Source of the DNA: a virus
Length of the DNA stretch: 64,000 nucleotides
Direction: 5' to 3' (one strand)
Virus record (IMG/VR): IMGVR_UViG_3300046535_002009
Location: 1 to 64,000 of that record
Each line of letters opens with the position of its first letter. Within the stretch, counting starts at the first letter, position 1. The translations under genes were made by a program, and so were the position numbers. Below, in pieces: positions 16,071 to 52,221 of this stretch. The notes under the pieces were generated by a model. That model was given only the letters and a program-made list of their open reading frames with translations, was not told the origin of the DNA and searched no databases.

Positions 16071-17660
16071 TCAGTTCTGGTGCTCCCAGGGCCATCTGGC
16101 GGAGCGGCCAGCCTCCAGGAGGGGGATCAGGCTGAAGGCCTGGTCGGTGAGGCCGCCGAAGGTGTGGCGGTTCGCGGCGCCGGAGGGACCGTGGCCGGCC
16201 TGGTACCCGGCGAGGTTCCAGGTGTAGAGCTGGACGTTCGCCGGGATCTCCTTCGTCGGGTCGCCGCCCCAGTAGCTGCCGGTGGCCTGCTCGTCGGTGA
16301 CGATGACGACGCGGTCATGGCCGCGGTAGTGCTGGCGTACGGCCGCGGCGGTTGCGGTGCCACCGAGGCTCCCGAACCGGTCGACGAGGCGGAGCACGGA
16401 GTCGCCGCGCTGGAAGGGCACGGCGGCCGAGCCGGTGCCGAACTGGACGAGGTCGGCGCTGGCGGCGCGCAGCGCCAGGGCGACGCCGAACACCGCGGCG
16501 GAGTCCGCTCGGTTGAGCTTCGTCTGCTGGCTGATGCCGTCGAACATGGAGCCGGAGCGGTCGATGAGGACGAGGGTGCGGCCGGGCAGGGACGGGACGT
16601 TGGTCAGGGAGTGGCCGAGGGCGGTCTCCAGGGCGTGGCCCCAGCGCAGGGACGGGGCGTGCTTGTAGGCGGCGAGGTACCGGAAGGGGAACTGGCGCGA
16701 GCGCCGGACCTCGGCGGGGTCGGCGATGCGGGCGCAGACCTCGGCGGCGACCTTGTCGGAGACGCCGGCCTGGTCGAAGTTCCGCAGGTTCCGCACCAGT
16801 GCCATCGTGCCCATGGCGGGGATGATGGCCTCCCATGCGGCGGCGTCCATGGGGCCCTGGAGCCAGCCGGCGAGGCGCTCCCAGGTGAAGCCGGCGCCGG
16901 CGAGGCCGCCCTCGGAGGAGACGAGGGTGGGGTCGAGGACGTAGGCACGACGGTCGGCGACCGGCAGCGCAGCGAGGGTGCGCTGCGCCTGGAGAACCGG
17001 CAGGGAGTCCGGGATGAGATCGACGCGGTTGTGCCGGGCGTCGATCGCGTGCCGGAACAGGTCGCCCTGCCACGCCTTGTCCGGGTGCGGCGCGGGGTGG
17101 GTGAGCTCCAGGACATCGGCGAAGCGGTAGCTCTTGGAGTCGCCGTCGTACTTCAGCAGCGCGCGCTCCGAGTAGAGGCGGCGGGCCGCGTCGGCGACGC
17201 CGCGCTTCACGGGCTGCGGGAGATTGCGGCCGTACCGGGAGGTCCAGTAGGCGAGGAACTCGCCGGGCTCGTCCGGGCGCTGCAGGACGGAGTTGATGAC
17301 CTGCCGGGAGTAGCCCGGGGCCTGGTGGAGGATCCGCTCGGCGGTGAACTCGGCGGCGCCGACCAGGGCCGCGGTGCGCATGTTGGCGTCGGTGCGCAGC
17401 CAGGAGAGGAAGGCGGAGGTCCAGGCGGGGTCGGTGGTGGCGAGCGTGCGGACGAGGCGCTGGAAGCGGTCGTCGCGGTCGCCGGCCTTCTCGTAGAAGG
17501 CGTCGTGGCCGACGGTGTTGGAGATGCCGAGGAGGAAGAGCTCGGACTTGGTGTCGCGGGCGTAGCCGGTGGCGCCTTCGGCGGTGCGCAGCGTCGGCCC
17601 GGTGGTGGTCACGGGCGAGGTCACGGCCGGGCGGGTGGTGGGGGTGTTGAAGCGGGACAC
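16071..17660 (-). CDS. Ro60/Rsr-family RNA-binding protein (TROVE plus vWA)
   Basis: A 529-residue protein of normal bacterial Ro length. The N-terminal about 340 residues match the TROVE HEAT-like ring (TDPAWTSAFLSWLRTDANMR, then GRNLPQPVKRGVADAARRLY). The C-terminal vWA domain has an intact MIDAS: D367-x-S369-x-S371, T435, D456. Ro rings bind Y RNAs on the outside and misfolded or 3'-ended RNA in the pore, and can tether PNPase. The GTG start follows GAGGGG. It lies 36 bases after three Y-like RNAs on the same strand. Confidence 0.9.
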   Translation of the reverse strand: MSRFNTPTTRPAVTSPVTTTGPTLRTAEGATGYARDTKSELFLLGISNTVGHDAFYEKAGDRDDRFQRLVRTLATTDPAWTSAFLSWLRTDANMRTAALVGAAEFTAERILHQAPGYSRQVINSVLQRPDEPGEFLAYWTSRYGRNLPQPVKRGVADAARRLYSERALLKYDGDSKSYRFADVLELTHPAPHPDKAWQGDLFRHAIDARHNRVDLIPDSLPVLQAQRTLAALPVADRRAYVLDPTLVSSEGGLAGAGFTWERLAGWLQGPMDAAAWEAIIPAMGTMALVRNLRNFDQAGVSDKVAAEVCARIADPAEVRRSRQFPFRYLAAYKHAPSLRWGHALETALGHSLTNVPSLPGRTLVLIDRSGSMFDGISQQTKLNRADSAAVFGVALALRAASADLVQFGTGSAAVPFQRGDSVLRLVDRFGSLGGTATAAAVRQHYRGHDRVVIVTDEQATGSYWGGDPTKEIPANVQLYTWNLAGYQAGHGPSGAANRHTFGGLTDQAFSLIPLLEAGRSARWPWEHQN

Positions 17661-17695: not shown

Positions 17696-17847
17696 GGGGC
17701 GCCCGAGGTCGAGGTCGGTGACGGGCTTGCAAGACCGCTGCTCTGTCCGATTGAGCTACCTCGCCAGCGTGGCTGGCGTGGGCGGGATTCGAACCCGCAA
17801 CCCGCGGTTCCGGAAGAAGTATCCGTCGCCTGCGCACCGGGCGCCCC
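17696..17847 (-). ncRNA. Y-RNA-like ncRNA C (YrlA type) with tRNA-like module
   Basis: The ends pair in a 10-bp stem (GGGGCGCCCG with CGGGCGCCCC). Just inside are the shared blocks GTGCGCAGG (5') and CTCGACCT (3'). Then come TACTTCTT, a T-arm (GCGGG-TTCGAAT-CCCGC), a 7-bp acceptor-like stem closed by CAC (CGCCAGC/GCTGGCG) and a D-arm (GCTC-9 nt-GAGC). The tRNA parts are in permuted order. This is the architecture of bacterial Y RNAs that mimic tRNA. It ends 36 bases before the Ro start codon. Confidence 0.8.
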
Positions 17848-17950: not shown

Positions 17951-18086
17951 GTCCAGAGTTCGAGGTCGGCTGAGGCAACGTAAGCGCTCTGGGCCGCTGA
18001 GCTACCGCCGGACGGACCGGCGGCCAGGATTCGAACCTGGGTCTCTCCTTTAGCAGAGGAAGTAACCCCGGCCTGCGCACCTGGAC
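17951..18086 (-). ncRNA. Y-RNA-like ncRNA A (YrlA type) with permuted tRNA-like module
   Basis: The ends pair as GTCCAG/CTGGAC. Inside are GTGCGCAGG (5'), CTCGAACT (3') and TACTTCCT. An anticodon-arm-like stem-loop follows (TTCCT-CTGCTAA-AGGAG, which would read GCU), then a T-arm (CCAGG-TTCGAAT-CCTGG), a 7-bp acceptor-like stem closed by TCCGT (CCGCCGG/CCGGCGG) and a D-arm (GCTC-AGCGGCCCA-GAGC). A TGTAGCGT box at 18101-18094 sits where an extended -10 would give a start near 18087. Confidence 0.8.
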
Positions 18087-26818: not shown

Positions 26819-27541
26819 ATGTCTGACACCTCTGTCACCCCGGCACCCACGCCCGAGCCGATCACCAACCAGGAGATCCCGGAGCTGGCGGACCGGGTCG
26901 CCCGCGAGCTGGTCCACTTCCTCCTCACCGAGTCCCGGAACTTCCTGGGCAACGGCGAGATCGACGAGGCCATCGGCAACGACAAGGACGCCGTCCGGCT
27001 CGATGCCCACACGCGCGGCCTGGTGTACGGCCAGGTCTGGGACGCGCTCGGCCGAGCCGCCGTCGAGTACCAGCCGCGCAACCACGTGCTCGCCGAGGCG
27101 GAGGAGATCGCCAGCTCGGTCATCGGGTGGGAGTGGCACCTCGACACCCTGAACGCGATCTGCGAGCGCCTGCGCGCCGCGCACGACAGCACCCCCAGAG
27201 TGTCGGCCTCCGACCGCGTCGCGGCCATCGCCACACGCGTCGCCGCGCTGCCCGTCTCCCCCGGCGGCGGCCGGATCACGGCCAGCCGCGACGAGATCCT
27301 ACGCGCGATCAACGGGAGCGCCCAGCCCGACACGGTCCGCATCAGCTCCCCGATCATCTGCTGCGGGTTCTGCGGCGACTTCCCCGTCGAGGAGGAGCAC
27401 CGCGACCACGGCGACCTGCGCTTCGTCGGCGACCCGGAGACAGCCGAGGCCGCCTGCATCGACTATCTGACCACCTACCGGGGCTGGAAGTTCACCGGGA
27501 CCGCGACCGAGACACGCTGCGGCGGCTGCATCAACGGCTGA
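26819..27541 (+). CDS. Hypothetical protein with C-terminal Cys pairs
   Basis: A 240-residue acidic, helical protein with CCGFCGDF near residue 180 and a final CGGC, consistent with a treble-clef or ribbon zinc site. Its start lies inside a possible 21-residue leader ORF (26761-26826) that would stop just after this ATG, so coupling is possible. No family is recognised. P1 operon. Confidence 0.65.
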   Translation: MSDTSVTPAPTPEPITNQEIPELADRVARELVHFLLTESRNFLGNGEIDEAIGNDKDAVRLDAHTRGLVYGQVWDALGRAAVEYQPRNHVLAEAEEIASSVIGWEWHLDTLNAICERLRAAHDSTPRVSASDRVAAIATRVAALPVSPGGGRITASRDEILRAINGSAQPDTVRISSPIICCGFCGDFPVEEEHRDHGDLRFVGDPETAEAACIDYLTTYRGWKFTGTATETRCGGCING

Positions 27542-27620
27542 CCCGTCACCGCAGGGCCGGCCAGGAACAGTCGGCCCGTGCAACACCCCGCCAACCCAAC
27601 TCCACGGAAGGAGCCCCTCG

Positions 27621-27887
27621 ATGCCCACCACTCCGACTCGCGCACCCGGCTCGGCGCAGCGCCGGACCGTCCGGGCCACCGAGTGCCCGGTCCGGATCTG
27701 GGTCGAGGACCACACCCTGGGCGGCCGGACGTTCTCCGTGAACTCCCGCTCCCCCCGGCGGCCGCACGGCCGGGTCGTCACCATCGACCGGATCGAGGTC
27801 CGCGACCACCTCCGGTACGGCACCACGACCGACGGGGACCAGGTCCGGCTCGGCGGCACCTCGGCAGACCTGTGGGTCGAAGCCTGA
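27621..27887 (+). CDS. Small basic beta-rich protein (88 aa)
   Basis: The ATG follows a strong GGAAGGAG site. The product (MPTTPTRAPGSAQRRTVRAT...) has a basic, Pro-rich start, then strand-like segments (RVVTIDRIEVRDHLRYGTTT). It is the last gene of the P1 operon. Function is unknown. Confidence 0.65.
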   Translation: MPTTPTRAPGSAQRRTVRATECPVRIWVEDHTLGGRTFSVNSRSPRRPHGRVVTIDRIEVRDHLRYGTTTDGDQVRLGGTSADLWVEA

Positions 27888-27931
27888 CCCTGCCTCGACT
27901 ACGGGCCGACCAGGCGGATCCCTGTCCTGGG

Positions 27932-27982
27932 TGCTGCAAATCGCAGCATTCTGTTGTCAGTGCGCAGCAACCTCGGTAGTGT
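27932..27982 (+). promoter_or_regulatory. Promoter/operator P4 of the RNA-repair operon
   Basis: Two inverted elements lie side by side: TGCTGC-AAATC-GCAGCA (27932-27948) and TGTTG-TCAGTGCG-CAGCA (27952-27969), variants of the operator seen at P1-P3. TTGTCA within the second and TAGTGT (27977-27982) form a possible promoter with a 16-base spacer. It lies in the 290-base gap before the RNA-repair operon, which otherwise holds only an untranslated leader. Confidence 0.6.
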
Positions 27983-28177
27983 CGTTCCACGCCACCGGGC
28001 CGCCGTCCCGCACCGGCGGCCCGGTGGCCACGGAGGCACGCGCGCACCGACCTGCGCCGCTGAGCCCCGACAGTGCGGGCCCGGCCCGACCCCCCTCAGG
28101 GCCGGCCCGCACGCCCCTACCGCAGCTCCCACCCCGACCCGTCGCAGCGTCGGCGGCACACCCCCACGGAGCCCCGC

Positions 28178-28453
28178 ATGGTCTTCATAGCCACCCACCA
28201 GGACGCCTACCTCGCGGCCACCAAGGTCCACCCGGGCGCAGCCAAGTTCCACGTGCACGACCTCGACTCCCGGCTCGTCGGCTTCACCTTCGCGCTCCGC
28301 GGCGGCCGTACCTACGCGTGGATCACCAGCGCTGGCCAGATCGGCACCACTGCCTGCGACAGCCGGAGCGCCGCCCTGCTGGACCTCCTGGCGGCCGTCA
28401 TCCAGCCGGAACACCGGCGCGCCACCCAGGCGTCCTACGCCCTCCACTCCTGA
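28178..28453 (+). CDS. Hypothetical protein, first gene of the RNA-repair operon
   Basis: A 91-residue alpha-beta protein (MVFIATHQDAYLAATKVHPG...) with FHVHDLDSRLVGFTFALRGG. It lies 15 bases before the RNA ligase start, in the same transcript. No family is recognised. The site before the ATG (CGGAGCCCCGC) gives a GGAG 7 bases upstream. Confidence 0.65.
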   Translation: MVFIATHQDAYLAATKVHPGAAKFHVHDLDSRLVGFTFALRGGRTYAWITSAGQIGTTACDSRSAALLDLLAAVIQPEHRRATQASYALHS

Positions 28454-28467
28454 AGGACACCCACCCG

Positions 28468-29628
28468 ATGAGCACCTTCATCTGCGCCCCGACCGGGCAC
28501 CTGACCCTCGACGACCTGTTCGCTCCCCAGGACCTGACGGCTGCGATCGACGCCAGCCACGTAACCCGGAAGTCGCACCCCGAGCTGCCGCTCTCCATCT
28601 ACACCTACACCGCGGTCTGCCAGTACGCGCAGATCTGGACCCCCATCACCACCCAGTGCCGGGGCCTGATCGCCGACGACCGCACTGGTGAGATCGTCGC
28701 CCTGCCGTTCCCGAAGATCTTCGTCACCGGTCTCCACACCGGCCTCCACGCGTACGCCCCCGCGCTGCCGACCGATGAGCGGTTCGAGATCTTCGAGAAG
28801 GCCGACGGGTCCCTGATCATCGTGTTCCACTACGCCGGGCGCTGGCATGCAGCGTCCAAGGGGTCGTTCATCTCCGAGCAGGCCCAGTGGGCGCAGGCCC
28901 TCCTCGACCGGTCCGACATCTCCCGCCTCGACCCCGGCCTGACCTACCTCGCCGAGGCGATCTACCCGGGCAACCGGATCGTCGTCGACTACGGCGGCCG
29001 GGAGGAGCTGATGCTTCTCGCCGCGTTCCGGCCCGCCGACGGCACCGAGGAGCTCCTGTCCGCCGTCACCCCAGACTGGGCACCGATCGGCCCGGTGGTG
29101 CGCTCCTGGGGCCTGTCCTCGGACATCACCGCCTTGGAGAAGCTCGCCACCCAGGACAGCAGCGTCGATGGCCGGGCCGTCGGGGGCACCGAGGAGGAGG
29201 GCTGGATCGTCCGCTTCGAGTCCGGGCTCCGCGCGAAGATCAAGCTGTCCGCTTACCTGACGCTCCACCGGCTCTACACCGGCACCAACCAACGCACCGT
29301 CTGGGCAGCCCTCGCCAACGGTGAGGATCTGGCCGGCCTGTTCGACCGCGTGCCCGACGAGTTCCGCGAGTGGGTCGATGAGATCGCAGTGCGACTGCGC
29401 GCCGAGCACAAGAAGCTCATCGAGCAGGCCGGCTGGGACTACGCCGCGATCGTCGTCGTCATGGCCCCCGGCGCAAGCCGCAAGGAGTTCGCCGCAGCCG
29501 CGGCCCAGTACAGCAACAGGTCCGCGCTGTTCCTCCTCCACGACCAGCGGTACGCGGCACTCACCGCCTGGGCGTGGAAGCAGGTCCGGCCGGCCGCCGA
29601 GGCTCCGTTCAAGGCAGGCGACGAGTGA
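28468..29628 (+). CDS. T4 Rnl1-like RNA ligase
   Basis: A 386-residue ATP-dependent ligase. Motif I is EKADGS with Lys111 as the likely AMP-accepting residue. Upstream is CRGLIAD, downstream EEGWIVRF (motif IV) and RAKIKLS (motif V), in the Rnl1 order. T4 Rnl1 seals tRNA cut by the host PrrC anticodon nuclease. Here it sits in one transcript with a kinase/phosphatase and an RlaP nucleotidyltransferase, the partners known from RNA-repair cassettes. Confidence 0.88.
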   Translation: MSTFICAPTGHLTLDDLFAPQDLTAAIDASHVTRKSHPELPLSIYTYTAVCQYAQIWTPITTQCRGLIADDRTGEIVALPFPKIFVTGLHTGLHAYAPALPTDERFEIFEKADGSLIIVFHYAGRWHAASKGSFISEQAQWAQALLDRSDISRLDPGLTYLAEAIYPGNRIVVDYGGREELMLLAAFRPADGTEELLSAVTPDWAPIGPVVRSWGLSSDITALEKLATQDSSVDGRAVGGTEEEGWIVRFESGLRAKIKLSAYLTLHRLYTGTNQRTVWAALANGEDLAGLFDRVPDEFREWVDEIAVRLRAEHKKLIEQAGWDYAAIVVVMAPGASRKEFAAAAAQYSNRSALFLLHDQRYAALTAWAWKQVRPAAEAPFKAGDE

Positions 29629-30035
29629 GCGACTTCGTCCTCATCGAGGAGAACTGGCTCCAGAAGGTCTTCGTGCGGGCCTGGGAGCCCGGGGACGGCC
29701 TGACCTGCTCGCACGCCAAGGCCGCTCCCCGTGACCTCCCCTGCACCGAACCCGTCGCAGTCACGGTGACGGAGGACAAGCGCGAGACCTCCCGCACGGG
29801 TCGGTGGAGCCGGACGGACACACGGCGGCTGCTGTGCCGCAACCACGCGCCCGGCCTGGCGCGGCCCAGCCAGATCCACGCCGACGCCAGGAAGGCCGCC
29901 CTGGAGCGCCTCGCCGTGGAGAACTGGGCGACCTACCAGCGCTACGTGGACGAGGAGATCCAGTCCCGGAGGGACCAGGCCCTTGTGCAGGCGCCGCCCG
30001 AGATTCGCCGCATCGTCCTCGGCGAGGACGCGTGA
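29625..30035 (+). CDS. Hypothetical protein coupled to the RNA ligase (136 aa)
   Basis: The GTG overlaps the ligase stop (GTGA). The protein has LTCSHAKAAPRDLPCTE and LLCRNHAPG, Cys/His spacings that could form a zinc site, followed by a charged helix ending in EEIQSRRDQALVQ. It could be an RNA-binding or adaptor subunit, but only context suggests this. Confidence 0.65.
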   Translation: MSDFVLIEENWLQKVFVRAWEPGDGLTCSHAKAAPRDLPCTEPVAVTVTEDKRETSRTGRWSRTDTRRLLCRNHAPGLARPSQIHADARKAALERLAVENWATYQRYVDEEIQSRRDQALVQAPPEIRRIVLGEDA

Positions 30036-30076
30036 ACACGCGGCCATCCGCAGCTACCAGAATGTCGAGGCCACCG

Positions 30077-30646
30077 ATGACCGATCTGTTTGCACGTGCA
30101 GCAAAGATCTTCAAGACCGGCCCCGACGGCATCGTCTGGCCCTACGGCCTCAGCGTCCCGGACCGCCGCCGCACCGGGCTCAGCAAGGCGAAGTGGCAGT
30201 GGATGGCCGATCACGCCCGCGCGGCGCAGCTGTCCATCGTGGAATGGGCAGAACACCACGAGGTCAAGGCAAGCCCGATCGGCTGCTGCCCACTCTGGTT
30301 GGCGCGCCCGAGCAGCAGACGCTGCAAGTTCGGTACTTGCCGTAACTACGGCGGCTTGGACTACCTGTGGCTGGACCACCCGATGGGGTGGCTGAAGGAT
30401 GGCAGGCCAGCAGTGCTGACCAGCGCGCCCTACAGGCTGTACGACGAGGACCGCGGCCACATCAACGAATGGCTGCAGAAGGACGACCGGCTGCGCGCCG
30501 ACTTCGGTGGCGGCTGGTACGGCTACAGCACAACGCAGATCGTGATGTGGCGAACGGACCGCATCACAGGTGTCGCGCCCGCCCCGGATCCGCACGGCGA
30601 GGTGAGCCTTGCCGCCCGAACCACGTCACTCGAAGGCGGCATCTGA
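30077..30646 (+). CDS. Hypothetical protein with Cys cluster (189 aa)
   Basis: I chose the ATG at 30077 because GAGG lies just upstream; a GTG at 30032 overlapping the previous stop is the alternative. Residues include ASPIGCCPLWLARPSSRRCK and FGTCRNYGGLDYLWLDHPMG, a possible zinc knuckle. Trp and Tyr are frequent. No family is recognised. It is the third unknown gene within the RNA-repair operon. Confidence 0.6.
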   Translation: MTDLFARAAKIFKTGPDGIVWPYGLSVPDRRRTGLSKAKWQWMADHARAAQLSIVEWAEHHEVKASPIGCCPLWLARPSSRRCKFGTCRNYGGLDYLWLDHPMGWLKDGRPAVLTSAPYRLYDEDRGHINEWLQKDDRLRADFGGGWYGYSTTQIVMWRTDRITGVAPAPDPHGEVSLAARTTSLEGGI

Positions 30647-31026
30647 TGGGTGCTCTGCACCTCGCAGTAGTCCACCAGACGCCGTTCCCGCCCCGCCGTC
30701 GGCGCGGTGGCGGCCGCCGCGGTGGCGGCGGCCGGCGGTTCCTCATCCCGTCTGGGTCGTGCGAGCCCTGCCGCGACCACTGGCACCACCGCTGCCGCGG
30801 CGTCGACGTCCTCGACGAGCACCGCCCGGACTGCCGCTGCCCTTGTGGCGACCCGCGCGACCCCACCGGGCTGCGGCTCAGCGCCGCCGCCTGGACCGAC
30901 CTCGCCCAGCACGTCCCTCAGCAGGTCTGGGTCGCCGTCCAGTTGCAGAGCCTCCGCGAAGGCGGCGGCGTCTTCGTCTGCGCGTGGCGGTCGGACGACA
31001 ACGGCCTGCGGTCGGCACTGCGGTGA
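30646..31026 (+). CDS. Basic zinc-finger-like protein (126 aa)
   Basis: The ATG overlaps the upstream stop (TGATG). A Gly/Arg-rich stretch (about residues 17-32) precedes CEPCRDHWHHRC and CRCPCGDP, a dense Cys/His cluster. Arg/Gly repeats with zinc fingers often bind RNA, so a nucleic-acid-binding role is reasonable, as inference. It couples to the next gene by GTGA. Confidence 0.6.
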   Translation: MGALHLAVVHQTPFPPRRRRGGGRRGGGGRRFLIPSGSCEPCRDHWHHRCRGVDVLDEHRPDCRCPCGDPRDPTGLRLSAAAWTDLAQHVPQQVWVAVQLQSLREGGGVFVCAWRSDDNGLRSALR

Positions 31027-31418
31027 GCGAGGTCGACGACCTCCGGGCGGAGAACGAGCAGCTCCGCCTCGCGCTCGCCGCGGCGCAGCGCCCCATCCCC
31101 GCGCTGCCGACCGAGCACGACGGAGAGCCGATCACCTGGCGCCCGTGGGAGCCCTCCCCGGTGATCCTCTGCTTCAAGGCCGGGGACCTCAACATCTGCC
31201 CGCAGTGCGACCACCCGGGCCCCTCTCTCCTCGCCCTCGGCCTGGCCGGCCCAGGCCGCCCCGTCATCCGCTTCAACGCCCGGCGCTGCCCCGGCTGTCA
31301 GGAGATGGCCGTCTACGAGCGCCGCCACCACCAGTACCGAATCGGCGCCGAGCTGGTCGAGATCGCCTACCACCCGCCGCACACCGGCCCGTTCCCTACA
31401 CCGAGAGAAGCGTCATGA
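31023..31418 (+). CDS. Zinc-ribbon-like protein (131 aa)
   Basis: A GTG start overlaps the previous stop. An N-terminal short coiled coil (VDDLRAENEQLRLALAAAQ) is followed by CPQCDHPG and, 30 residues on, CPGCQ: a four-Cys ribbon. Its ATGA overlap with the RlaP gene puts it firmly in the RNA-repair transcript. Function is unknown. Confidence 0.65.
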   Translation: MSEVDDLRAENEQLRLALAAAQRPIPALPTEHDGEPITWRPWEPSPVILCFKAGDLNICPQCDHPGPSLLALGLAGPGRPVIRFNARRCPGCQEMAVYERRHHQYRIGAELVEIAYHPPHTGPFPTPREAS

Positions 31419-32107
31419 CCCCTCCACTCAACCCCCTCCTGTCCGGAGTCGTCGGCTCCACCGCATACGGCCTCGCGCACGCCGGCTCCGACGTCGACCG
31501 GCTCGGCGTGTTCGCCGCACCGACGCACGCCCTCCACGGGCTTGGCCGGCCGCCCGAGTCGGCCGTCACCACGAACCCGGACTCGACCTGGCACGAGGCC
31601 GCGAAGTGGTGTCGGCTCGCCCTCGGATGCAACCCGACCGCCATGGAGCTGGTCTGGCTCGACAGCTACGAGGTCGAGACCGAACTCGGCCAGGACCTGA
31701 TCGGCCTCCGGCAGTCGTTCCTCAGCGCTGGCCGCGTGCGAGATGCCTACCTCGGCTACGCCACCCAGCAGTTCCGCAAGCTCCAGGCCCGCGGCGACGG
31801 CACGTTCAGCAGCGATGTCCGCGGCCGGACCGCCAAGCACGCACGGCACCTCGTCCGGCTCCTGCAGCAAGGCGTCGGGCTGCACCGGACCGGGCACCTG
31901 ACCATCCGGATCGCCGACCCGAACCATGTGCAGTACCTGGCCGGCCGCCTCGTCGCGGCCCCGGTCTACGGCGAGGAACTCCTTCAGGACGCCAGCCAGG
32001 CCTTCGACTCTCCCGGCGTCCTGCCCGGCCGGCCCGACGAGAGCTCCGTCGAGAAGTGGCTCCACGCGGTTCGCGCCACCTACTACCGGCCGGAGGCCGA
32101 CCGATGA
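31415..32107 (+). CDS. RlaP-type nucleotidyltransferase (DNA pol beta superfamily)
   Basis: A 230-residue protein with the minimal NTase signature GSTAYGLAHAGSDVDRLG: GS at 14-15, catalytic Asp26 and Asp28. The rest matches the YcgL/RlaP family, named for its link to RNA-repair loci. It may add nucleotides to RNA ends before sealing, which is inferred from the superfamily. It overlaps its neighbours on both sides, between the zinc-ribbon gene and the kinase/phosphatase. Confidence 0.85.
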   Translation: MTPPLNPLLSGVVGSTAYGLAHAGSDVDRLGVFAAPTHALHGLGRPPESAVTTNPDSTWHEAAKWCRLALGCNPTAMELVWLDSYEVETELGQDLIGLRQSFLSAGRVRDAYLGYATQQFRKLQARGDGTFSSDVRGRTAKHARHLVRLLQQGVGLHRTGHLTIRIADPNHVQYLAGRLVAAPVYGEELLQDASQAFDSPGVLPGRPDESSVEKWLHAVRATYYRPEADR

Positions 32108-33018
32108 TCACCGTTCACCTCACCACCGGACTCCCCGCCTCCGGGAAGAGCACGCACGCACGGCACCTGGTCGCCGAGTCCGGCGGTCGCATGCGGCGCG
32201 TCAACATGGACGACATCCGGGCCATGCTCGATGACCACGGCAGCGGCCGGGTCTGGAGCAGGGAGCACGAGAAGACCGCGCTCGCCGTCCAGGACGCGGC
32301 GGTACTCGCCGCGGTGGCCGACGGCTTCGACGTCGTGGTCGACAACACCCACCTCACCACGCACATGCCCAGCCGCATCCGAGCGGCGCTCACCGGCCAG
32401 GACGTCACCTTCGTCATCCACGACTTCACCCACGTCCCGCTCGAGGAGTGCCTGGCCCGGGACGCCGCCCGCCCGGCGCCGGTCGGCGAGGACGCGATCC
32501 GCCGCCTGCACCAGCGCCTCCAGTCCGCCCGCAAGAGCGGCTGGAAGCTCACCGCGGAGTGGATGTCCGGCCGGCTCCCCGTCGAGCCGTACACGCCGCT
32601 TCCCGGCCTCCCGCCGGCGGTCCTCTGCGACATCGACGGCACTCTGGCCCTGCACGTCTCCCGCGGCCCGTACGACTTCGAGCGGTGCGGCGAGGACGCG
32701 CTGAACACCGCGGTCAGCGACACCGTGGACCTGTTTCGCGACGCCGGCCACCGCATCGTCCTCATGTCCGGGCGCAGCGAGGAGTTCCGGCCCCAGACCG
32801 AGGCCTGGCTCGCCAAGCAGGACGTCGCCTACGACGAGCTGTGGATGCGCGCCACCGGCGATGTCCGCCGCGACGACGTGGTGAAGCTGCAGCTGTTCAA
32901 CACCCACGTCCGCGACCGGTACCAGGTCGTCCTCAGCCTCGACGACCGCGACCGCGTCGTCGCCCTCTGGCGGACGCTCGGCATCCCGACCTTCCAGGTC
33001 AACTACGGCAACTTCTAG
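32104..33018 (+). CDS. Polynucleotide 5'-kinase/3'-phosphatase (T4 Pnkp-like)
   Basis: A 304-residue protein, close to T4 Pnkp (301). The N-terminal kinase has P-loop GLPASGKST (residues 9-17) and NMDD with Asp36/37 as likely general base. The C-terminal HAD phosphatase has DIDGT (176-180) with the nucleophile Asp176 and late LSLDDRDRVV. It would turn 5'-OH and 2',3'-cyclic or 3'-phosphate ends into ligatable ends for the Rnl1-like ligase. The start overlaps the RlaP stop. Confidence 0.9.
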   Translation: MITVHLTTGLPASGKSTHARHLVAESGGRMRRVNMDDIRAMLDDHGSGRVWSREHEKTALAVQDAAVLAAVADGFDVVVDNTHLTTHMPSRIRAALTGQDVTFVIHDFTHVPLEECLARDAARPAPVGEDAIRRLHQRLQSARKSGWKLTAEWMSGRLPVEPYTPLPGLPPAVLCDIDGTLALHVSRGPYDFERCGEDALNTAVSDTVDLFRDAGHRIVLMSGRSEEFRPQTEAWLAKQDVAYDELWMRATGDVRRDDVVKLQLFNTHVRDRYQVVLSLDDRDRVVALWRTLGIPTFQVNYGNF

Positions 33019-33025
33019 GAGCAGC

Positions 33026-33934
33026 GTGTCCCGCGTCTACTTCCGCTCCCCGTCGGGCTGCGCTGAGCTCCACGGCAGCGAGCGTGCCCGGCTCGGCGGC
33101 ATCGCCAACGACATCGCCATCGGAGCGCTCCACCTCGACGACCACCACATCATCGAGCGCCTGCAGCAGCTCATCCCCGACGGGCACTTCATGACCCGCC
33201 AGCACCCCAGAGGGCCGGATTGGGCCCTCACCTGGGCCGACAGCTTCCGAACGGCCCTGCTGGTCAACTTCGGCCAGACCCCGCTCATCGCCTACCGCGG
33301 CCAGGAGGTCGACGCCTTCGACCTCGTGCTGAACAGCGCCCTGGCGCTCGGCAACGACGCGGTCAGGCTCGGGGTCCGGATTCACGGCCAGTGCGAGATC
33401 CACGGGTGGGTCGACGGCTCGAACCGGGCTTGGCTCGCCGACATCATGCAGGCCGGACTCGATGCGGGTATCTACCGGCACGGCTTCTGGCGCGAGCCGC
33501 TGCCGGGCAGTACCGCCCCGCGGCAGTGGCTGAGCCAGGGCTGGGACGAGGTGATCGAGTTCCTGCGAGCCCAGGACGACGAGCCGGTCGTCATGTCGTA
33601 CTCGGTGACTGACGGCTTCCCCAACGAGATGGTCGGCGACTGGATGCCTCCTTGGCCTGCTGACGTCCCGAAGAAGCTCGGCTGGGACGGACTGAGCGAG
33701 GAGCAGCAGACGGAGCGACAGACCCGGGCGGACGCCTGGTGGGAGCTCGACGACGCCGAGCAGTGGCGGATCTCCATGGCCGGGCTGCGGCAGCACGGCG
33801 GCGGCCGGGAGCTGCGCCCCGGCAACTGGCAGGAGTTCCGGTTCGGCCACCGCCTGTCGGTGCTGGACCTGGTGGCCCAGGACTGGGAGGACCGCCTCGC
33901 ACGGGCCCTGGGTCTTGTGGCTACCGCAAGTTGA
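33026..33934 (+). CDS. Unknown conserved-looking protein ending the RNA-repair operon
   Basis: A 302-residue protein after GGAGCAGC-GTG, only 7 bases past the kinase/phosphatase. It begins MSRVYFRSPSGCAELHGSER and contains GQCEIHGWVDGSNRAWLADI and GWDEVIEFLR, with many Trp. It reads as a well-folded alpha-beta protein. I do not recognise a family, and no catalytic motif is certain. By position it is a candidate new member of the repair pathway. Confidence 0.7.
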   Translation: MSRVYFRSPSGCAELHGSERARLGGIANDIAIGALHLDDHHIIERLQQLIPDGHFMTRQHPRGPDWALTWADSFRTALLVNFGQTPLIAYRGQEVDAFDLVLNSALALGNDAVRLGVRIHGQCEIHGWVDGSNRAWLADIMQAGLDAGIYRHGFWREPLPGSTAPRQWLSQGWDEVIEFLRAQDDEPVVMSYSVTDGFPNEMVGDWMPPWPADVPKKLGWDGLSEEQQTERQTRADAWWELDDAEQWRISMAGLRQHGGGRELRPGNWQEFRFGHRLSVLDLVAQDWEDRLARALGLVATAS

Positions 33935-34032
33935 TCGGTCTCGCCTGCTGGCCAGTCGTATCCCCGAACCCGCGGCCGGCGACTCCTCGCCGGTCTACGC
34001 TGACCCCGGGTGTGCCTGGGAGGAGAGAAGTG

Positions 34033-34566
34033 ATGTACCAGATGCGTGAGGCGACGGCCTCCGACGCCAGGCCGATCGCCGAGATGGTGCGGGCCCGCTC
34101 CGCATGGCTGTCCGCGCGTGGGCTGGGCGAGTGCGCGGACATGGCCGACGAGTACGGCTCGCAGGCGGGGAACCCGGCGTTCCCCGTGTGGGTGCTGGAG
34201 CACGAGACGGACGGAGTCGTCGGCTGCACGTCCACCTTCGGCAACGAGGCGCTGCCCCCGTTCGCGTTCAGCGAGGAGGAGCGCGCCGAGCCGACGCTGT
34301 TCCTCGCCACGACGTTCACCGTGCCCAACCCGCACCGCCTCGGCCGGCTGATCGCCTGGTGGGCGCTGAACCGGGCCGCCGAACAGGGCCTCGCATGGGT
34401 TCGCCGCGGGACCGGCCAGGAGCAGCTCGCCCGCTACTACCAGGAGGCGCAGGGCTGGGAGCTGCTGCGCGTCGTGGATCGGCGCGGGGCGAAGGTCTTC
34501 TTTCTGCAGCGCGAGGCCGCTGCGGTGCCGGAGCTGGCCGACCTGATGGCCGGCCGCGGCCTGTAG
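34033..34566 (+). CDS. GNAT-family acetyltransferase
   Basis: A 177-residue protein starting after AGGAGAGAAG. MREATASDARPIAEMVRARS is the usual GNAT N-terminus. The middle carries FLATTFTVPNPHRLGRLIAW, followed by a helix (ARYYQEAQGWELL) like the GNAT C-terminal helix. It ends at a 22-bp terminator facing the asparagine-synthetase-like gene. Acetyltransferases accompany some acetylated lasso-peptide clusters, but self-acetylation of drugs or peptides is equally possible. Confidence 0.8.
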   Translation: MYQMREATASDARPIAEMVRARSAWLSARGLGECADMADEYGSQAGNPAFPVWVLEHETDGVVGCTSTFGNEALPPFAFSEEERAEPTLFLATTFTVPNPHRLGRLIAWWALNRAAEQGLAWVRRGTGQEQLARYYQEAQGWELLRVVDRRGAKVFFLQREAAAVPELADLMAGRGL

Positions 34567-34568
34567 CG

Positions 34569-34617
34569 ACACGCCGAGGGCCCGCAGCAGAGCGACTGCT
34601 GCGGGCCCTCGGCGTGT
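34569..34617. terminator. 22-bp perfect stem, bidirectional terminator
   Basis: A 22-base arm from 34569 pairs perfectly with 34596-34617 around AGCGA. It sits exactly between the convergent stops of the GNAT gene and the asparagine-synthetase-like gene and should stop transcription from both sides. Confidence 0.85.
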
Positions 34618-36198
34618 TCAGCGGCGGGTGAGTGCGGAGTCCGCCAGTAGTGCGAAGACGACTTCGTGGTCGCCTGCGGCCGGGGTGCCGTCCTCCAGCC
34701 GGTCGGCGACCTGGCCGAGGCCGTCGGGGTTCAGCAGCCGGGCGTCGATCAGCGGGGAGCCGTCGGCCAGGATTCGGCGGATGCGGGGCACACCGTGGCG
34801 GCGCATGGCCTCGGTGATGATCTGCTGAAAGTTCTCCACGATCGGCGGCCGGGCGACCTGAGGCGGCATGCCCGTGCGGGCGATGATCACCCGGAGCACC
34901 TGCTTGTCCCGCCGCCATTCCAGGGGAAGCCACTCGCAGAACCGGACAAGCGCCGGATCGGTGAGCGGGTGGGCCGGCCACAGACCGTGGCGCAGGAACG
35001 CCGGGCCGCAGACCGCCTTCGCCATCAGCGCGGTCTCGGGGACGACCGCGGCCGGGGTGATCGCCGTGTCAATGTCCGGCAGGAGGGCCTGGGCGGCGGT
35101 GCCCAGCCACGGCGGAGTGCTGGTCGGCTCGAACCCTCCCCAGCCGCCGGTGTCCTCGGCCGCGGTGGTGGCCATCAGCTCGTCTCCGCCGATGCCCGTG
35201 AACACGGCCCTGATTCCCGCCTGGGAGAACCGGCCCGAGAGGGTGTCGAGGGCATCCGCGTAGATGTCCGTGGTCGGGGAGACCCATACCGGCCGACTGA
35301 ACCGGGAGACCGGCCCGTACGGCAGGTGGTCGGCGGCCTGCACGGCCAGGCTCGACCAGCCGGACGCGATGTGGTCCAGGAGCAGCTGTCGCCGATCGGA
35401 CTGCTGGGCGCCGCGTTCGGCGTCGAGGATGACCGTCCCGGCGGTCACGCCGGCCCCCTGCGGGGCGGTACGCATGGCCAGGGCGACCGTCGTGGAGTCC
35501 ATCCCGCCGGACAGCTGCACCGCGGTCTTGGAGCCGGTCCACGGCAGGCGCGTGACGGCCCGCTCCAGCAGGTCGGCGAACAGCGGGATCGGGTCCATGC
35601 CCTGCTGGAGCGACCGTGCCCGGCTGTGCTCCGCGGGAGCAGGGAACTGGATGGCGAGCGCCCCGTCCACTCCGAAGTGGGCTGTTGCCCGCTCGGTGAG
35701 GAGCCGGACGTCCTGCCAGAAGGTCGCCGCCGAGTACCGGGCGCGCAGGGCGAGGTGGCGGGTGATGGCGAGATGGTCGAGCCGGTCCGGGCGCTGCTGG
35801 TCGCGGAGGTTCATCAGGTCCCACGAGCCGTACAGGACACTGCCGTCGGCGGCCAGGTACTGCGGGGCGGTGCACGCGGTGCCGGTCGTGACCTGGACGG
35901 CCCGGCCGGGTTCGACATGGACGGCAGTCCAGTCGTCGTGGAGCTCGTGCAGCTCGCGGACGGCCTTGTCGTAGGCGCCAGCCGAGACGGTGGCCACCTC
36001 GGGCCGGCCCGGGCGCTCGCCGCTGCGCCTGGCGGACGAGGTGAACAGAGTGCGGGTGCCGTCGGTGAGGGCGGTCTGCTCGGTCAGGACGTGGCGGTAC
36101 GGCTCGATCCAGGACGTCCCGCACTGCCAGCGGCTGGCGCACCAGGCCCAGGTCCGGCCGGGGAGGTTGTCGTCGTGGGTGATGCGGAGGTCGAACAT
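34618..36198 (-). CDS. Asparagine-synthetase-like peptide cyclase
   Basis: A 526-residue protein with the ATP-pyrophosphatase motif SGGMDS (230-235) and the later TGIGGDELM loop. The N-terminal half is the degenerate glutaminase-like domain lacking the catalytic Cys2 (starts MFDLRITHDD), so it should activate a carboxylate without ammonia channelling. This is the pattern of lasso-peptide macrolactam synthetases and beta-lactam synthetase-like enzymes. A 52-aa peptide gene lies just upstream. No RRE/leader peptidase gene is visible nearby. Confidence 0.8.
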   Translation of the reverse strand: MFDLRITHDDNLPGRTWAWCASRWQCGTSWIEPYRHVLTEQTALTDGTRTLFTSSARRSGERPGRPEVATVSAGAYDKAVRELHELHDDWTAVHVEPGRAVQVTTGTACTAPQYLAADGSVLYGSWDLMNLRDQQRPDRLDHLAITRHLALRARYSAATFWQDVRLLTERATAHFGVDGALAIQFPAPAEHSRARSLQQGMDPIPLFADLLERAVTRLPWTGSKTAVQLSGGMDSTTVALAMRTAPQGAGVTAGTVILDAERGAQQSDRRQLLLDHIASGWSSLAVQAADHLPYGPVSRFSRPVWVSPTTDIYADALDTLSGRFSQAGIRAVFTGIGGDELMATTAAEDTGGWGGFEPTSTPPWLGTAAQALLPDIDTAITPAAVVPETALMAKAVCGPAFLRHGLWPAHPLTDPALVRFCEWLPLEWRRDKQVLRVIIARTGMPPQVARPPIVENFQQIITEAMRRHGVPRIRRILADGSPLIDARLLNPDGLGQVADRLEDGTPAAGDHEVVFALLADSALTRR

Positions 36199-36281
36199 CA
36201 GCTGTCGGCCCTTCGTGCGCCGGTGAGGGTGGACGCGGCCCGGCCGCAGCGGACGTGCCGCTGCGGCCGGACGAGGGACTG

Positions 36282-36440
36282 TCAGACAGCCGTGGTGTCG
36301 TACGTCTGGACCGAGTCGCTGGACCCGGCGATCTTCTTGTACGAGTACCGGTCGGTGGTGTCCATGACCTCGTACGCCGGCTCGTCGCCGAAGATCCGGC
36401 CGGCGGCCTCCAGCAGCATGCGCTCGTCGGTGATGATCAC
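36282..36440 (-). CDS. Candidate precursor peptide (52 aa)
   Basis: A GTG at 36440 follows GGTGAAGGGAACAGGCCC. The peptide has an acidic helical leader-like start (MIITDERMLLEAAGRIFGDE) and a Ser/Thr/Asp-rich end (KKIAGSSDSVQTYDTTAV). It lies 83 bases before the cyclase on the same strand. Lasso rings need an acidic residue at core position 7-9; no clean Gly-start core fits, so the product type is open. Confidence 0.55.
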   Translation of the reverse strand: MIITDERMLLEAAGRIFGDEPAYEVMDTTDRYSYKKIAGSSDSVQTYDTTAV

Positions 36441-44948: not shown

Positions 44949-45403
44949 GTCCCCTCGTCGACGACAGCCAGCGGATCATCGACGCCATCGCCTGCGGCGC
45001 CTCCGGGGACCGGCCGGGCGCCCTGGCCCACCTGAAGCCGATCATCGACCGCGGCCCCGGCGCCATCTTCGCCATGCTCCACGCCCTGGCCAACGTCGCA
45101 GTGGTCGAGCAGAAGCCGGAGACCGGAACGTTCCTCGGCATCGCCGTCGAGACCACGGACGGGCACGCTGCGAGCATCGACCAACTCCCGGCCGGGCACC
45201 GGTTCGCCGCGCAGTTCACCACCGCGGTCGCGAACGACGACCTGGACCAGGCCGACGCCCTCTACCGCGCGCTGCTCGTCGGTGACGACTTCCACGCCGC
45301 CACCGGCTTGGCCGAAGGGATCGGCGCCGTCTACGACATGGCCGTCGCCACGACCGTCGCCATGGTCGAGCTGGCCCGGCAGCGGAAGCGGGGCCAGCAG
45401 TGA
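44945..45403 (+). CDS. Hypothetical helical protein before Thg1 (152 aa)
   Basis: The ATG follows GAGAAGGAGATCC. The acidic, helical protein (MSPLVDDSQRIIDAIACGAS...) resembles an alpha-solenoid or repeat-like fold (ALAHLKPIIDRGPGAIFAML). It couples by GTGA to the Thg1-like gene, so it may act with it. No family is recognised. Confidence 0.65.
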   Translation: MSPLVDDSQRIIDAIACGASGDRPGALAHLKPIIDRGPGAIFAMLHALANVAVVEQKPETGTFLGIAVETTDGHAASIDQLPAGHRFAAQFTTAVANDDLDQADALYRALLVGDDFHAATGLAEGIGAVYDMAVATTVAMVELARQRKRGQQ

Positions 45404-46212
45404 GCAGCGACACCACGGCGCTCGGCGACCGCATGAAGCGCTACGAGGCGCCGTACCGGGCCCTGTTGCCGCGCCGCACGTACACCGTGCTGCGGGTCGA
45501 CGGCCGCGCGTTCCACACGTACCTCAGGGGCGCCGTGCGGCCCTTCGACGAGGCTTTCGCCGCGGACATGGATGCCGTTGCCGCGGCGATGTGCAAGGAG
45601 ATCACGGGCGCATTCCTGGCCTACGTCCAGTCCGACGAGATCAGCATCGTCGCCGCGGACTTCCGCTCGACCAGCACCGAGCCGTGGTTCGGCGGGGTCG
45701 TCGCGAAGTGGACGAGCATCGGCGCAGCAATCGCCACGGCCGAGTTGAACGCCCGCCGGCCGGGCCGCCGTGCCCTGTTCGATGCCCGGGTCTTCACGCT
45801 GTCCGACCCGGTGGAGGTCGCCAACTACCTGGTGTGGCGGCAGCGGGACGCAACCCGGAACAGCATCGTCATGGCCGGGCAGGCGCACTTCCCGCACCGA
45901 TCCCTCCACGGGCAGGACACCGGGCAGATCCAGGAACGGCTGTGGGCTGAGCGGGGCGTGAACTGGAACCGCTACCCGGACGGCTTCAAGCGTGGCCGGG
46001 TCGCCACCCGCGTCGTCGGCTTCCGCGACAGCGAGCACCCCGAACGGGGGCGCGCGCCGCGGTCATGGTGGGCAGCGGAACCGGCACCGGTCTTCATCGC
46101 CGAGCCGGGCAGCTGGCTCGCCCGGACGATCCCCACCCTGCCCACGCTCGCACCGGCGCCGCCCTGCGGCGTCGGCCACTCGCTGGCACCGCACCAGTCC
46201 GCCCCGGCCTGA
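45400..46212 (+). CDS. Thg1-like 3'-5' RNA polymerase (tRNA-His guanylyltransferase family)
   Basis: A 270-residue protein with the Thg1 core: LRVDGRAFHTYLRG (metal ligand Asp34), then YVQSDEISIV (Asp79, Glu80), all three catalytic carboxylates intact. Bacterial and phage Thg1-like proteins add nucleotides to the 5' end of tRNA in the 3'-5' direction and repair 5'-truncated tRNA. The extra C-terminal about 40 residues are Pro-rich. The GTG start overlaps the upstream stop. Confidence 0.9.
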   Translation: MSSDTTALGDRMKRYEAPYRALLPRRTYTVLRVDGRAFHTYLRGAVRPFDEAFAADMDAVAAAMCKEITGAFLAYVQSDEISIVAADFRSTSTEPWFGGVVAKWTSIGAAIATAELNARRPGRRALFDARVFTLSDPVEVANYLVWRQRDATRNSIVMAGQAHFPHRSLHGQDTGQIQERLWAERGVNWNRYPDGFKRGRVATRVVGFRDSEHPERGRAPRSWWAAEPAPVFIAEPGSWLARTIPTLPTLAPAPPCGVGHSLAPHQSAPA

Positions 46213-49715: not shown

Positions 49716-50299
49716 TAGGCCTCCTCGCTGAGAATGCGTACGAGGTCGACAATGGCCGCGCTAGACAGGTGCTTCCGCAGGACGCGCGCCGTGGCGTCAG
49801 TGTCCTCCACCGGCACGCTGACTGCTCGCCTCCGGAAGCCCGCCTGCACCATGGCGGCGTGCGCGGACAGGTGCCCCGCGAGGACCTCGGCATGCAGCTC
49901 GGGGGCGTCCTTGCGGAGGCGGCGAAGGGCCGAGGTCTGAGAGTTCCCGTCCGGCTGGGCAAGGTTGACATTGTCACCCTTGCTTCGGTCGCCCCCGTGC
50001 GGAGCCTGAAGGGCCTGGTCGAGCAGGTCGAGCGCCACCGGATCGTCCGCGACCACCCGCTGGACGAGCGCCACCGACGCCCCGAGCCCCTTCAGCGGCG
50101 GCGTGGTCACAAAGTCGGCGAAGCTCGCGTGCTCCACCAACTCGCCCCGCACGGTGACGAAGGACCGCCAGGACCCATCAGCGAGCAGCCGGCGCAGGAG
50201 CTCCGGAGCGTTCTCCAGCCCGCTCCCGCCCCGCTCCAGCGCAGAGGACAGCGCCTCAACGAGGGTTCCCCGTGCGCGCCCCTCCTCCCGCGCGGTCAC
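49715..50299 (-). CDS. Hypothetical protein of the helicase block (194 aa)
   Basis: A 194-residue helical protein. Its C-terminal half holds LRRLRKDAPELHAEVLAGHL and AAMVQAGFRRRAVSVPVED, a motif seen in many unannotated phage and mobile-element proteins. Its stop overlaps the next start by one base and its start overlaps the helicase stop (GTGA). A DNA-binding partner of the helicase is plausible. Confidence 0.65.
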   Translation of the reverse strand: MTAREEGRARGTLVEALSSALERGGSGLENAPELLRRLLADGSWRSFVTVRGELVEHASFADFVTTPPLKGLGASVALVQRVVADDPVALDLLDQALQAPHGGDRSKGDNVNLAQPDGNSQTSALRRLRKDAPELHAEVLAGHLSAHAAMVQAGFRRRAVSVPVEDTDATARVLRKHLSSAAIVDLVRILSEEA

Positions 50300-52221
50300 T
50301 GAGCCTCCCGAAGCATCTGCTCCACGAATTCCAGTCCGCGCTGCAGCTGCTGGACGCTCGCGTCAGCGCGCTTCCGCACGCCCATGACCTGGTTCACCCG
50401 CCACTGCAGCTCCGGGTGCTCCAGCCCAAGCTTGAACACCGCGTGGCGCGAGCGCTTCGTCAGCTGGTCGGCCAAGGCCTTCCGCCTCTTGTGCAGGGGC
50501 TCGTCCGCGGCCCCGATCGCCACCCTGCTGCCCTGCGGCGGGATGGGCATCGGCACCGTGCCGACCTTGGTCAGCTCGCCGAGCTCCTCGCGGACGAGCT
50601 TGCGCATCGAGGCGAGCACGCTCGGCGGGAAGTCGTGCTTCTTAAGCAGTTCCTCCGCGCGCTCGTTCTCCTCCACGGTCCACTCGGTGCCGGCATGGAT
50701 CGCGCCGTGGAACGTGGGCTGGGACGCGGCGAGGGGGATCCGGGCGAACAGGTCCAGCATCTGTTGGCCGTTGCCGTCGCTCAGCTCGCGCTCGATCTCC
50801 TCCTCCTGGAGGTCGAGCTCGTGCCGGATCTCCTGCTCGATCTGCGCCGCCATGATCCGGAGGCCCGAGAGCGCTGGCGCGAACACCGTGGCGATCTGCT
50901 CGTCAGCCTTGCCTTGGCGCCGGACGAACCGGCCGACCGCCTGGCGGAAGAACATCTCCGTCTTCGTCTTCGTGGCGTACACCCCGAGGGCCAGGCGCGG
51001 GACGTCGACGCCTTCCGACACCATCCGGACAGCGACCAGCCAGCGCTGGCTGCCCTCGGAGAACCGGTCGATGCCGAGCTTCGCCTCGGGGCCGTCCTCG
51101 GAGAGCACCACGACGGGGTCCTCGCCGGTGATGTCCTTCAGTATCTTGGCGTAGGCCTTCGCCTGCGGGGCCCGGTAGGCGATGACCAGGCCGCCAGCCC
51201 GCGGCGCCTCCTCCCGCATCGCCGTGAGCGTGCTGTCCGCCTTCAGTAGCAGGCCCTTCATCCAGCCCGTGGCCGGGTCCAGCGCGGTCTCCAGGACGGC
51301 GGACACGTCGCCGCGCTGCAGTTCGGCCGACAGGTTGGCGCTGGAGGTCACCGACCCGGAGTCCATCCACTTCATCTCGCCGTCGTAGAAGTGGAAGTCG
51401 ACCTGGCGGCAGACGTCGTCCCGGATGGCCTGGCCATAGCTGTATGTGTAGTCAGCGATAGAGCGCGGCACTCCGTCGCTGTCCTTCTCATACCGCACGA
51501 AGGGGATCGGGTTGTTGTCCGACCGGAACGGCGTGCCGGACAGGGCCAGGCGGCGCGACGCCTCGGAGAAGGCGTGCTTGACCGCGGCACCCCACGCCTT
51601 CTCATCGCCGGCATGGTGGACCTCGTCGAGGATCACCAGGGTCTTCTGCTGGCAGCCGAGGCGGTGGAGGTCAGGCTGCGAGGCGACCTGGGCATAGGTG
51701 ACGGCCGCGCCGCGGTAGTCCGCCGGGTTCTCCAGGCCGTCGCTGTTCTTCGTCGTGGGGTCGATCTCGAAGCCGCACTCGTGTGCGGCCGTCGCCCATT
51801 GCATCTTGAGGTGCTCGCTCGGCACGACGATGACGATGCGCCTGACCACCCCGCTGTCCATCAAGTCGCTGGCTAGCCGGAGCGCGAACTTGGTCTTCCC
51901 GGCGCCCGGGGTGGCGACCACGAGGAAGTCCCTGGCATTGCGCGTGACATAGGTGGTCAGGGCAGCGCGCTGCCATTCGCGGGGGTCGGGGCCAGTCCAT
52001 GCCATGTGCGTCGAGCCCTTCTTCAGGTTGCAGTCCGGGCAGAGCGCTTGCCCGTTGATCACGTCAGTAGGGCCGCCGGCAGACCATGGGGTGATGTGGT
52101 CGCCGTGCCAGCCCGGGAGGAGCCGGGTCCCGCACTTCGTGCAGGTGCCACCCGAGGCGAGGTACATCGCCACGCGCTCGGAAGAGTTGAACCGGCGGCG
52201 GGTGGGGTCCGGAGTCACCAC
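50296..52221 (-). CDS. HNH nuclease-SF2 helicase fusion
   Basis: A 641-residue protein. Residues about 20-70 form an HNH domain (CTKC, then GDHITPWSAGG and CPDCNLKKGS). A DEAD/DEAH SF2 helicase follows: Walker A ATPGAGKT (103-110), DEVH (199-202), ALSGTP and late QAVGRFVRRQG. Nuclease-helicase fusions occur in restriction-like and defence systems and in phage replication modules. The operon with two unknown genes on the strand opposite the P3 operon suggests a self-contained cassette. Confidence 0.85.
   Translation of the reverse strand: MVTPDPTRRRFNSSERVAMYLASGGTCTKCGTRLLPGWHGDHITPWSAGGPTDVINGQALCPDCNLKKGSTHMAWTGPDPREWQRAALTTYVTRNARDFLVVATPGAGKTKFALRLASDLMDSGVVRRIVIVVPSEHLKMQWATAAHECGFEIDPTTKNSDGLENPADYRGAAVTYAQVASQPDLHRLGCQQKTLVILDEVHHAGDEKAWGAAVKHAFSEASRRLALSGTPFRSDNNPIPFVRYEKDSDGVPRSIADYTYSYGQAIRDDVCRQVDFHFYDGEMKWMDSGSVTSSANLSAELQRGDVSAVLETALDPATGWMKGLLLKADSTLTAMREEAPRAGGLVIAYRAPQAKAYAKILKDITGEDPVVVLSEDGPEAKLGIDRFSEGSQRWLVAVRMVSEGVDVPRLALGVYATKTKTEMFFRQAVGRFVRRQGKADEQIATVFAPALSGLRIMAAQIEQEIRHELDLQEEEIERELSDGNGQQMLDLFARIPLAASQPTFHGAIHAGTEWTVEENERAEELLKKHDFPPSVLASMRKLVREELGELTKVGTVPMPIPPQGSRVAIGAADEPLHKRRKALADQLTKRSRHAVFKLGLEHPELQWRVNQVMGVRKRADASVQQLQRGLEFVEQMLREAQ

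Follow-up and report, generated by a model that had tools for sequence, protein, structure and literature searches.

Does a phage gene run that holds an RNA ligase, the nucleotidyltransferase RlaP and the kinase/phosphatase Pnkp also encode new repair subunits, or do the other genes of the run only travel with the enzymes? The question is raised by positions 28178-33934 (+) of a window of 64,000 nucleotides, which comprises bases 1-64000 of the 110,060-bp IMG/VR virus record IMGVR_UViG_3300046535_002009 (G000) and has a GC content of 72%. PHROG matches to a major head protein (E 1.5e-27), a portal (E 5.3e-56) and a large terminase (E 1.5e-63) identify the record as a phage genome. The relatives of the genes in the run are found mostly in Streptomyces plasmids, phages and genomes, which suggests a Streptomyces-type phage and a corresponding host. 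From sequence comparison, we put the probability at roughly three in four that the locus is the core of a phage counter-defence tRNA-repair kit, in which most of the genes of no known family are mobile-element passengers on a shared transcript. Such a kit would belong to a known kind, with its genes in an arrangement that is new.

The three enzymes are clearly identified by their domains and motifs. The ligase contains the PF09511 domain (E 3.8e-11, 43.7 bits with a cut-off of 28.3) and matches phrog_562 (E 2.8e-48), while the match to T4 Rnl1 in the PDB (2c5u) is weak (E 0.0023). The KxDG nucleotidyl-lysine motif and motifs IV and V of Rnl1-type ligases are present (KADG at 111, EEGW at 243, KIKL at 257), and the catalytic positions K111, E244, K257 and K259 are invariant in an alignment of 10 sequences. 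RlaP matches PF10127 (E 4.8e-15, 56.4 bits with a cut-off of 23) and phrog_388 (E 2.6e-26) and carries the family motif GS...DxD as GS...DVD; it shows 52% identity to nucleotidyltransferases of Streptomyces phages and has no sequence match in the PDB. Pnkp has the T4-type architecture, an N-terminal P-loop kinase (PF13671, E 6.9e-18) fused to a C-terminal HAD_PNKP phosphatase (PF25109, E 1.2e-49), with both domains above cut-off and a phrog_505 match of E 3.9e-84. Its GKST and DxDGT motifs are intact (GLPASGKST, DIDGT), and it matches Pnkp1 (4xrp, E 3.4e-43) and T4 Pnkp (1ltq, E 5.3e-33) over the full length. The Pfam and PHROG matches and the motifs bear out the earlier note on this DNA, which had placed the three enzymes in one run with intact motifs.

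Gene neighbourhoods were compared in 89 ligase loci, 9 viral and 80 bacterial. The viral loci hold ligase relatives at 46-75% identity. The bacterial loci were obtained with an alignment (profile) query, after the ligase as a single-sequence query had given nothing in the bacterial genome contigs. Pnkp directly follows the ligase in 6 of the 9 viral loci (L024-L028 and L032). It comes right after the ligase in 77 of the 80 bacterial loci (missing in L036, L057 and L075), which do not represent 77 independent events because these relatives are Streptomyces nearly throughout. Ligase and Pnkp even lie in the same open frame in 7 Streptomyces loci (L041, L050, L055, L056, L063, L082 and L104); in the one locus checked, L041:9986-12274, a single 763-aa frame with ligase, kinase and phosphatase domains was confirmed by Pfam. 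Similarly, Arthrobacter phage Seahorse encodes the ligase and then a polynucleotide kinase. A third conserved family is absent around the pair, the next commonest being found in only 21 of the 80 bacterial loci. The adjacency and the in-frame joins support the idea, put forward before, that Rnl1 and Pnkp work here in repair as they do in T4.

The proposed association of RlaP with RNA ligases is likewise upheld, by the run itself and by L032, a distant viral record with the order ligase-Pnkp-RlaP plus Thg1, in which the genes between Pnkp and RlaP differ from those in the window. RlaP is absent from the other 8 viral ligase records, which are possibly fragments. Its presence somewhere in 20 of 20 ligase-bearing bacterial genomes examined is not used as evidence of linkage, because the background rate in ligase-free genomes was not measured. 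Since ligase and Pnkp are direct neighbours in the relatives, the order in the window, where u29625, u30077, u30646, u31023 and RlaP separate them, departs from the common one. In this lineage the 5 genes were probably inserted between ligase and Pnkp, which is the simplest history.

The layout of the run was then compared with the window as a whole. The junction spacings are, in order, 14, -4, 41, -1, -4, -4, -4 and 7 nt, which agrees with the earlier description of mostly overlapping starts and stops. Across the window, 33 of 87 same-strand junctions overlap by 1-12 nt. This baseline indicates that tight packing is the norm of the genome and carries little information on common function, and the overlaps were dropped as a sign of functional coupling. 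A scan of 27500-34700 gave neither a sigma-70-like promoter nor an intrinsic-terminator-like site, a result that is compatible with a single transcript and does not prove it. The third-codon-position GC content (GC3) of all open reading frames (ORFs) in the run is 0.84-0.96. The small ORF that opens the run has no significant Pfam or PHROG match and no relative in the fetched loci.

Five genes of the run (u29625, u30077, u30646, u31023 and u33026) had been proposed as new repair or RNA-binding subunits, a proposal staked on their co-occurrence with ligase, RlaP or Pnkp in other genomes. For most of them the neighbourhood search found no such co-occurrence. Relatives of u29625, u30077 and u30646 were found near ligase-Pnkp in 0 of the 89 ligase loci, at distances of up to 10 kb, nor did any other locus found place them beside ligase, Pnkp or RlaP, and only u31023 was recurrently found near a PNKP-type phosphatase. 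Searches with u29625 came back empty for viral contigs, for PLSDB plasmids and for 392 Streptomyces genomes, the last of these being a weak result because no genome is known to match. Relatives of u30077 are present in 11 Streptomyces plasmid records and 5 of 199 Streptomyces genomes; the plasmid and chromosome loci examined hold no repair gene near them, and the viral-contig scan returned nothing. The least certain gene call of the run is u30646, for which no convincing relative was found, the single weak match containing 3 stops. Zinc-type Cys clusters had been described in three of the five genes. This holds for u31023, in which the four cysteines of CxxC...CxxC are invariant in an alignment of 8 relatives and which is probably zinc-binding; u30077 has 4 Cys, and the Cys-rich u30646 is without relatives to show conservation. 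Outside this genome, the loci found show the u30077 and u31023 families in separate elements and never together, and the families of these genes in general occur apart from the repair genes and apart from one another. Taken by their neighbourhoods, u29625, u30077 and u30646 are best read as passengers, not as repair subunits.

The two remaining genes have relatives with more informative surroundings. As a single-sequence query, u31023 found nothing in viral contigs; its closest relative, 51% identical, is on a Thermobispora plasmid and has no repair gene in its vicinity. In phage Gilgamesh, contigs L141-L145 and related loci, a u31023-like gene precedes a gene for an 87-aa Cys protein, and a HAD_PNKP phosphatase gene then closely follows in 8 of 12 Gilgamesh-type loci (split in L134, not found in L133, L135, L144 and L148). 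Relatives of u31023 also lie downstream of ligase-Pnkp, by 2.1 kb in L024 and 6.7 kb in L028, and none is near the ligase in any of the 80 bacterial loci. Separately, the HAD_PNKP-type protein at L142:10524-10985 of a Gilgamesh-type element reads DLEGG at the DxDGT position, and this protein is probably catalytically inactive.

Relatives of u33026 are found in 7 plasmids, 3 phage records and 4 viral loci. In six of the plasmids (loci L013-L018), u33026 has no repair gene near it, the whole record contains no such ligase, and a common set of other neighbours recurs. The genome of Gordonia phage VanLee encodes u33026, RlaP, a short gene annotated as polynucleotide kinase and a Ro-like protein. 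On balance, u33026 leans towards a passenger. Structures were predicted for u31023 (an N-terminal helix and a beta-rich domain, pLDDT 73.8) and, with AlphaFold2, for u33026 (pLDDT 79.8). Neither model has a PDB match at E <= 0.001 (best Z 4.3, rmsd 4.0, 86 aligned for u31023; best VIA-align Z 3.0, rmsd 3.8, 69 aligned for u33026), which does not show a new fold, and the only confident viral structure match of u33026 is the VanLee homologue.

The repair set is wider than the earlier note stated: a Thg1-like polymerase belongs to it, as does a Ro/TROVE protein accompanied by two YrlA-like RNAs (Table 1). The Thg1-like protein matches PF04446 (E 4.3e-19, 69.2 bits with a cut-off of 29.2), phrog_4717 (E 4.9e-69) and the Thg1-like protein 4kgk (E 1e-46); RVDGRAFH and QSDE are present, and the catalytic carboxylates of the family are in place. 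Thg1 is also found in the L024 and L032 records. Both YrlA-like RNAs lie in tandem just upstream of the Ro/TROVE gene. Their scores are below the RF02553 gathering score of 69, and their folding z-scores are unremarkable (-1.43 and -0.15); the position beside the Ro gene, as in VanLee, suggests divergent YrlA relatives only. VanLee has the same layout of Ro and YrlA-like RNA, with one RNA annotated as tRNA-Arg. ARAGORN calls a tRNA-Ser(gct) at 18014-18083, overlapping the second YrlA-like RNA, and this may be the same kind of miscall.

Table 1 Coordinates of the genes and RNAs of the run and of the wider repair set.
Feature	Coordinates	Strand	Basis or remark
Small ORF, 91 aa, directly upstream of ligase	28178..28453	+	GC3 0.92
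T4 Rnl1-type ATP-dependent RNA ligase, 386 aa	28468..29628	+	PF09511, phrog_562, motifs
u29625, 136-aa orphan, 4-nt overlap with ligase stop	29625..30035	+	No match found
u30077, 189 aa, Streptomyces plasmid/chromosome family	30077..30646	+	Plasmid and genome relatives
u30646, 126 aa, Arg/Gly-rich N terminus, 7 Cys	30646..31026	+	Coding score 15
u31023, 131 aa, CxxC...CxxC	31023..31418	+	Alignment of 8, neighbourhoods, model
RlaP-family Pol-beta nucleotidyltransferase, 230 aa	31415..32107	+	PF10127, phrog_388
Pnkp, 5' kinase and HAD 3' phosphatase, 304 aa	32104..33018	+	PF13671, PF25109, phrog_505, PDB matches
u33026, 302 aa, conserved actinophage/Streptomyces plasmid protein	33026..33934	+	Relatives, AlphaFold2 model
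Thg1-like 3'-5' RNA polymerase, 270 aa, 12 kb away	45400..46212	+	PF04446, phrog_4717, PDB 4kgk
Ro/TROVE and VWA RNA-binding protein	16071..17660	-	PF05731 E 3.8e-14; PDB 9l5y/9kop TROVE protein E 6.5e-31
YrlA-like Y RNA, full-length model match	17712..17826	-	RF02553 42.3 bits, E 4.1e-7
Second, weaker YrlA-like RNA	17954..18083	-	RF02553 25.2 bits, E 0.036

In phage T4, tRNA repair by Rnl1 and Pnkp is a counter to PrrC. The present phage shares with T4 an Rnl1-type ligase and a two-domain kinase/phosphatase with intact motifs; it differs in that the two genes are adjacent or joined in relatives and that RlaP, Thg1-like and Ro genes are added, and tRNA is the presumed substrate here. The proposed order of steps would begin with host cleavage of a tRNA, at a site such as the anticodon loop. 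Pnkp would then strip the 3' phosphate or cyclic phosphate and phosphorylate the 5' end, RlaP would replace a nucleotide missing from the break, and resealing of the ends would fall to the Rnl1-type ligase. The Thg1-like polymerase, encoded elsewhere in the genome, would be able to restore 5' ends, and the Ro protein with the YrlA-like RNAs would possibly handle misfolded or damaged RNA.

Similar enzyme sets have been surveyed in jumbo phages, in which Rnl1, kinase-HAD, RlaP, Thg1 and TROVE proteins were described as phage repair tools and RlaP was predicted to put back nucleotides that are lost before the ends are ligated (PMC7824862). The same enzyme families as in those sets (Rnl1/Rnl2, PNK-HAD, RlaP, Thg1 and TROVE) are found here within one viral genome; the difference is a 110-kb Streptomyces-type record with RlaP and four genes of no known family between ligase and Pnkp. 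RloC excises the wobble nucleotide, a loss that ligase and Pnkp by themselves could be unable to repair (PMC2610378) and a lesion of the kind that RlaP is predicted to mend. Pnkp here matches Pnkp1 best, the kinase/phosphatase of the bacterial Pnkp1-Rnl-Hen1 complex (PMC4411300), while the ligase is of the Rnl1 type instead of that complex's Rnl. The genes of the locus showed no Hen1 methyltransferase, though no search was aimed at one. In some bacteria, Ro and Y RNAs accompany RtcB operons (PMC7790460). As in the rsr-yrlBA-rtcBA operon, a Ro protein and Y-RNA-like RNAs occur here in a genome with RNA repair genes; 10 kb separate the Ro locus from the ligase gene, the two are on opposite strands, and the ligase is Rnl1.

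Other explanations have to be weighed against a repair core with passengers. It is quite unlikely that the genes of no known family are dedicated subunits or regulators that bind RNA or zinc in one complex with ligase, RlaP and Pnkp. The overlapping junctions, the recurrence of u31023 near PNKP-type phosphatase genes and the occasional position of u33026 near repair genes would fit such a complex, yet overlaps are common window-wide, three of the genes never appear near ligase-Pnkp in the 89 loci, and the u30077 and u31023 families stay apart in the loci found elsewhere. A tail-fibre attachment role for the ligase, like the second activity of T4 Rnl1, is suggested by its best PHROG, annotated "RNA ligase and tail fiber protein attachment catalyst". 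With the ligase paired or joined with Pnkp in bacterial genomes, and RlaP and Thg1 in the same viral genomes, this role in place of RNA repair is very improbable.

A narrower exception concerns u31023, which may be an accessory zinc protein among passengers. It is possible, though doubtful, that u31023 is the only one of the five genes with a genuine accessory role to PNKP-type phosphatases, such as that of an RNA adaptor that binds zinc. The close succession of genes in the Gilgamesh-type loci and the relatives downstream of Pnkp speak for it; however, the Gilgamesh-type loci look syntenic and count as about one event, one phosphatase of that group lacks the DxDGT motif, and neither the Thermobispora plasmid nor the bacterial ligase loci show the association. 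A further step, in which u31023 would be the founder of a zinc-binding family working with PNKP-type phosphatases in actinophage RNA repair, joined here with ligase, RlaP, Thg1-like polymerase and a Ro-Y RNA particle as one integrated tRNA-repair system, is unlikely. The reading of a repair core with mostly passenger genes is also weakened at several points besides the non-independence of the bacterial loci. The record may be incomplete, and selection to express the five genes together could account for the tight overlaps. In L003, L011, L020 and L028, u33026 lies at most about 6 kb from ligase, RlaP or HAD_PNKP genes. Given these neighbours and the phosphatase genes that follow u31023 relatives, the passenger status of u33026 and u31023 is unproven.

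A phage that brings enzymes for end healing, nucleotide restoration and ligation is able to undo the cleavage of tRNA by its host. The presence of ligase, Pnkp, RlaP, Thg1-like polymerase and Ro with YrlA-like RNAs within about 30 kb makes this genome a compact test case, including for the open prediction that RlaP fills gaps left by nucleotide-removing nucleases. The ligase-Pnkp pair is widespread in Streptomyces, in some as one frame, and a limited literature search found no study of it there.

Three other features of the window were observed. At 34618-36440 (-), an asparagine-synthase-like protein (PF00733, E 1.4e-13) has a 52-aa ORF (36282-36440) immediately upstream, a pair that resembles a lasso-peptide cyclase and its precursor; the family test covered the cyclase only. 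The 177-aa product of 34033-34566 (+) matches PHROG 38266 (E 3.3e-44) and has a weak GNAT-like Pfam match. A single 623-aa ORF at 50296-52167 (-) combines an HNH nuclease domain with a DEAD/ResIII-type helicase domain.

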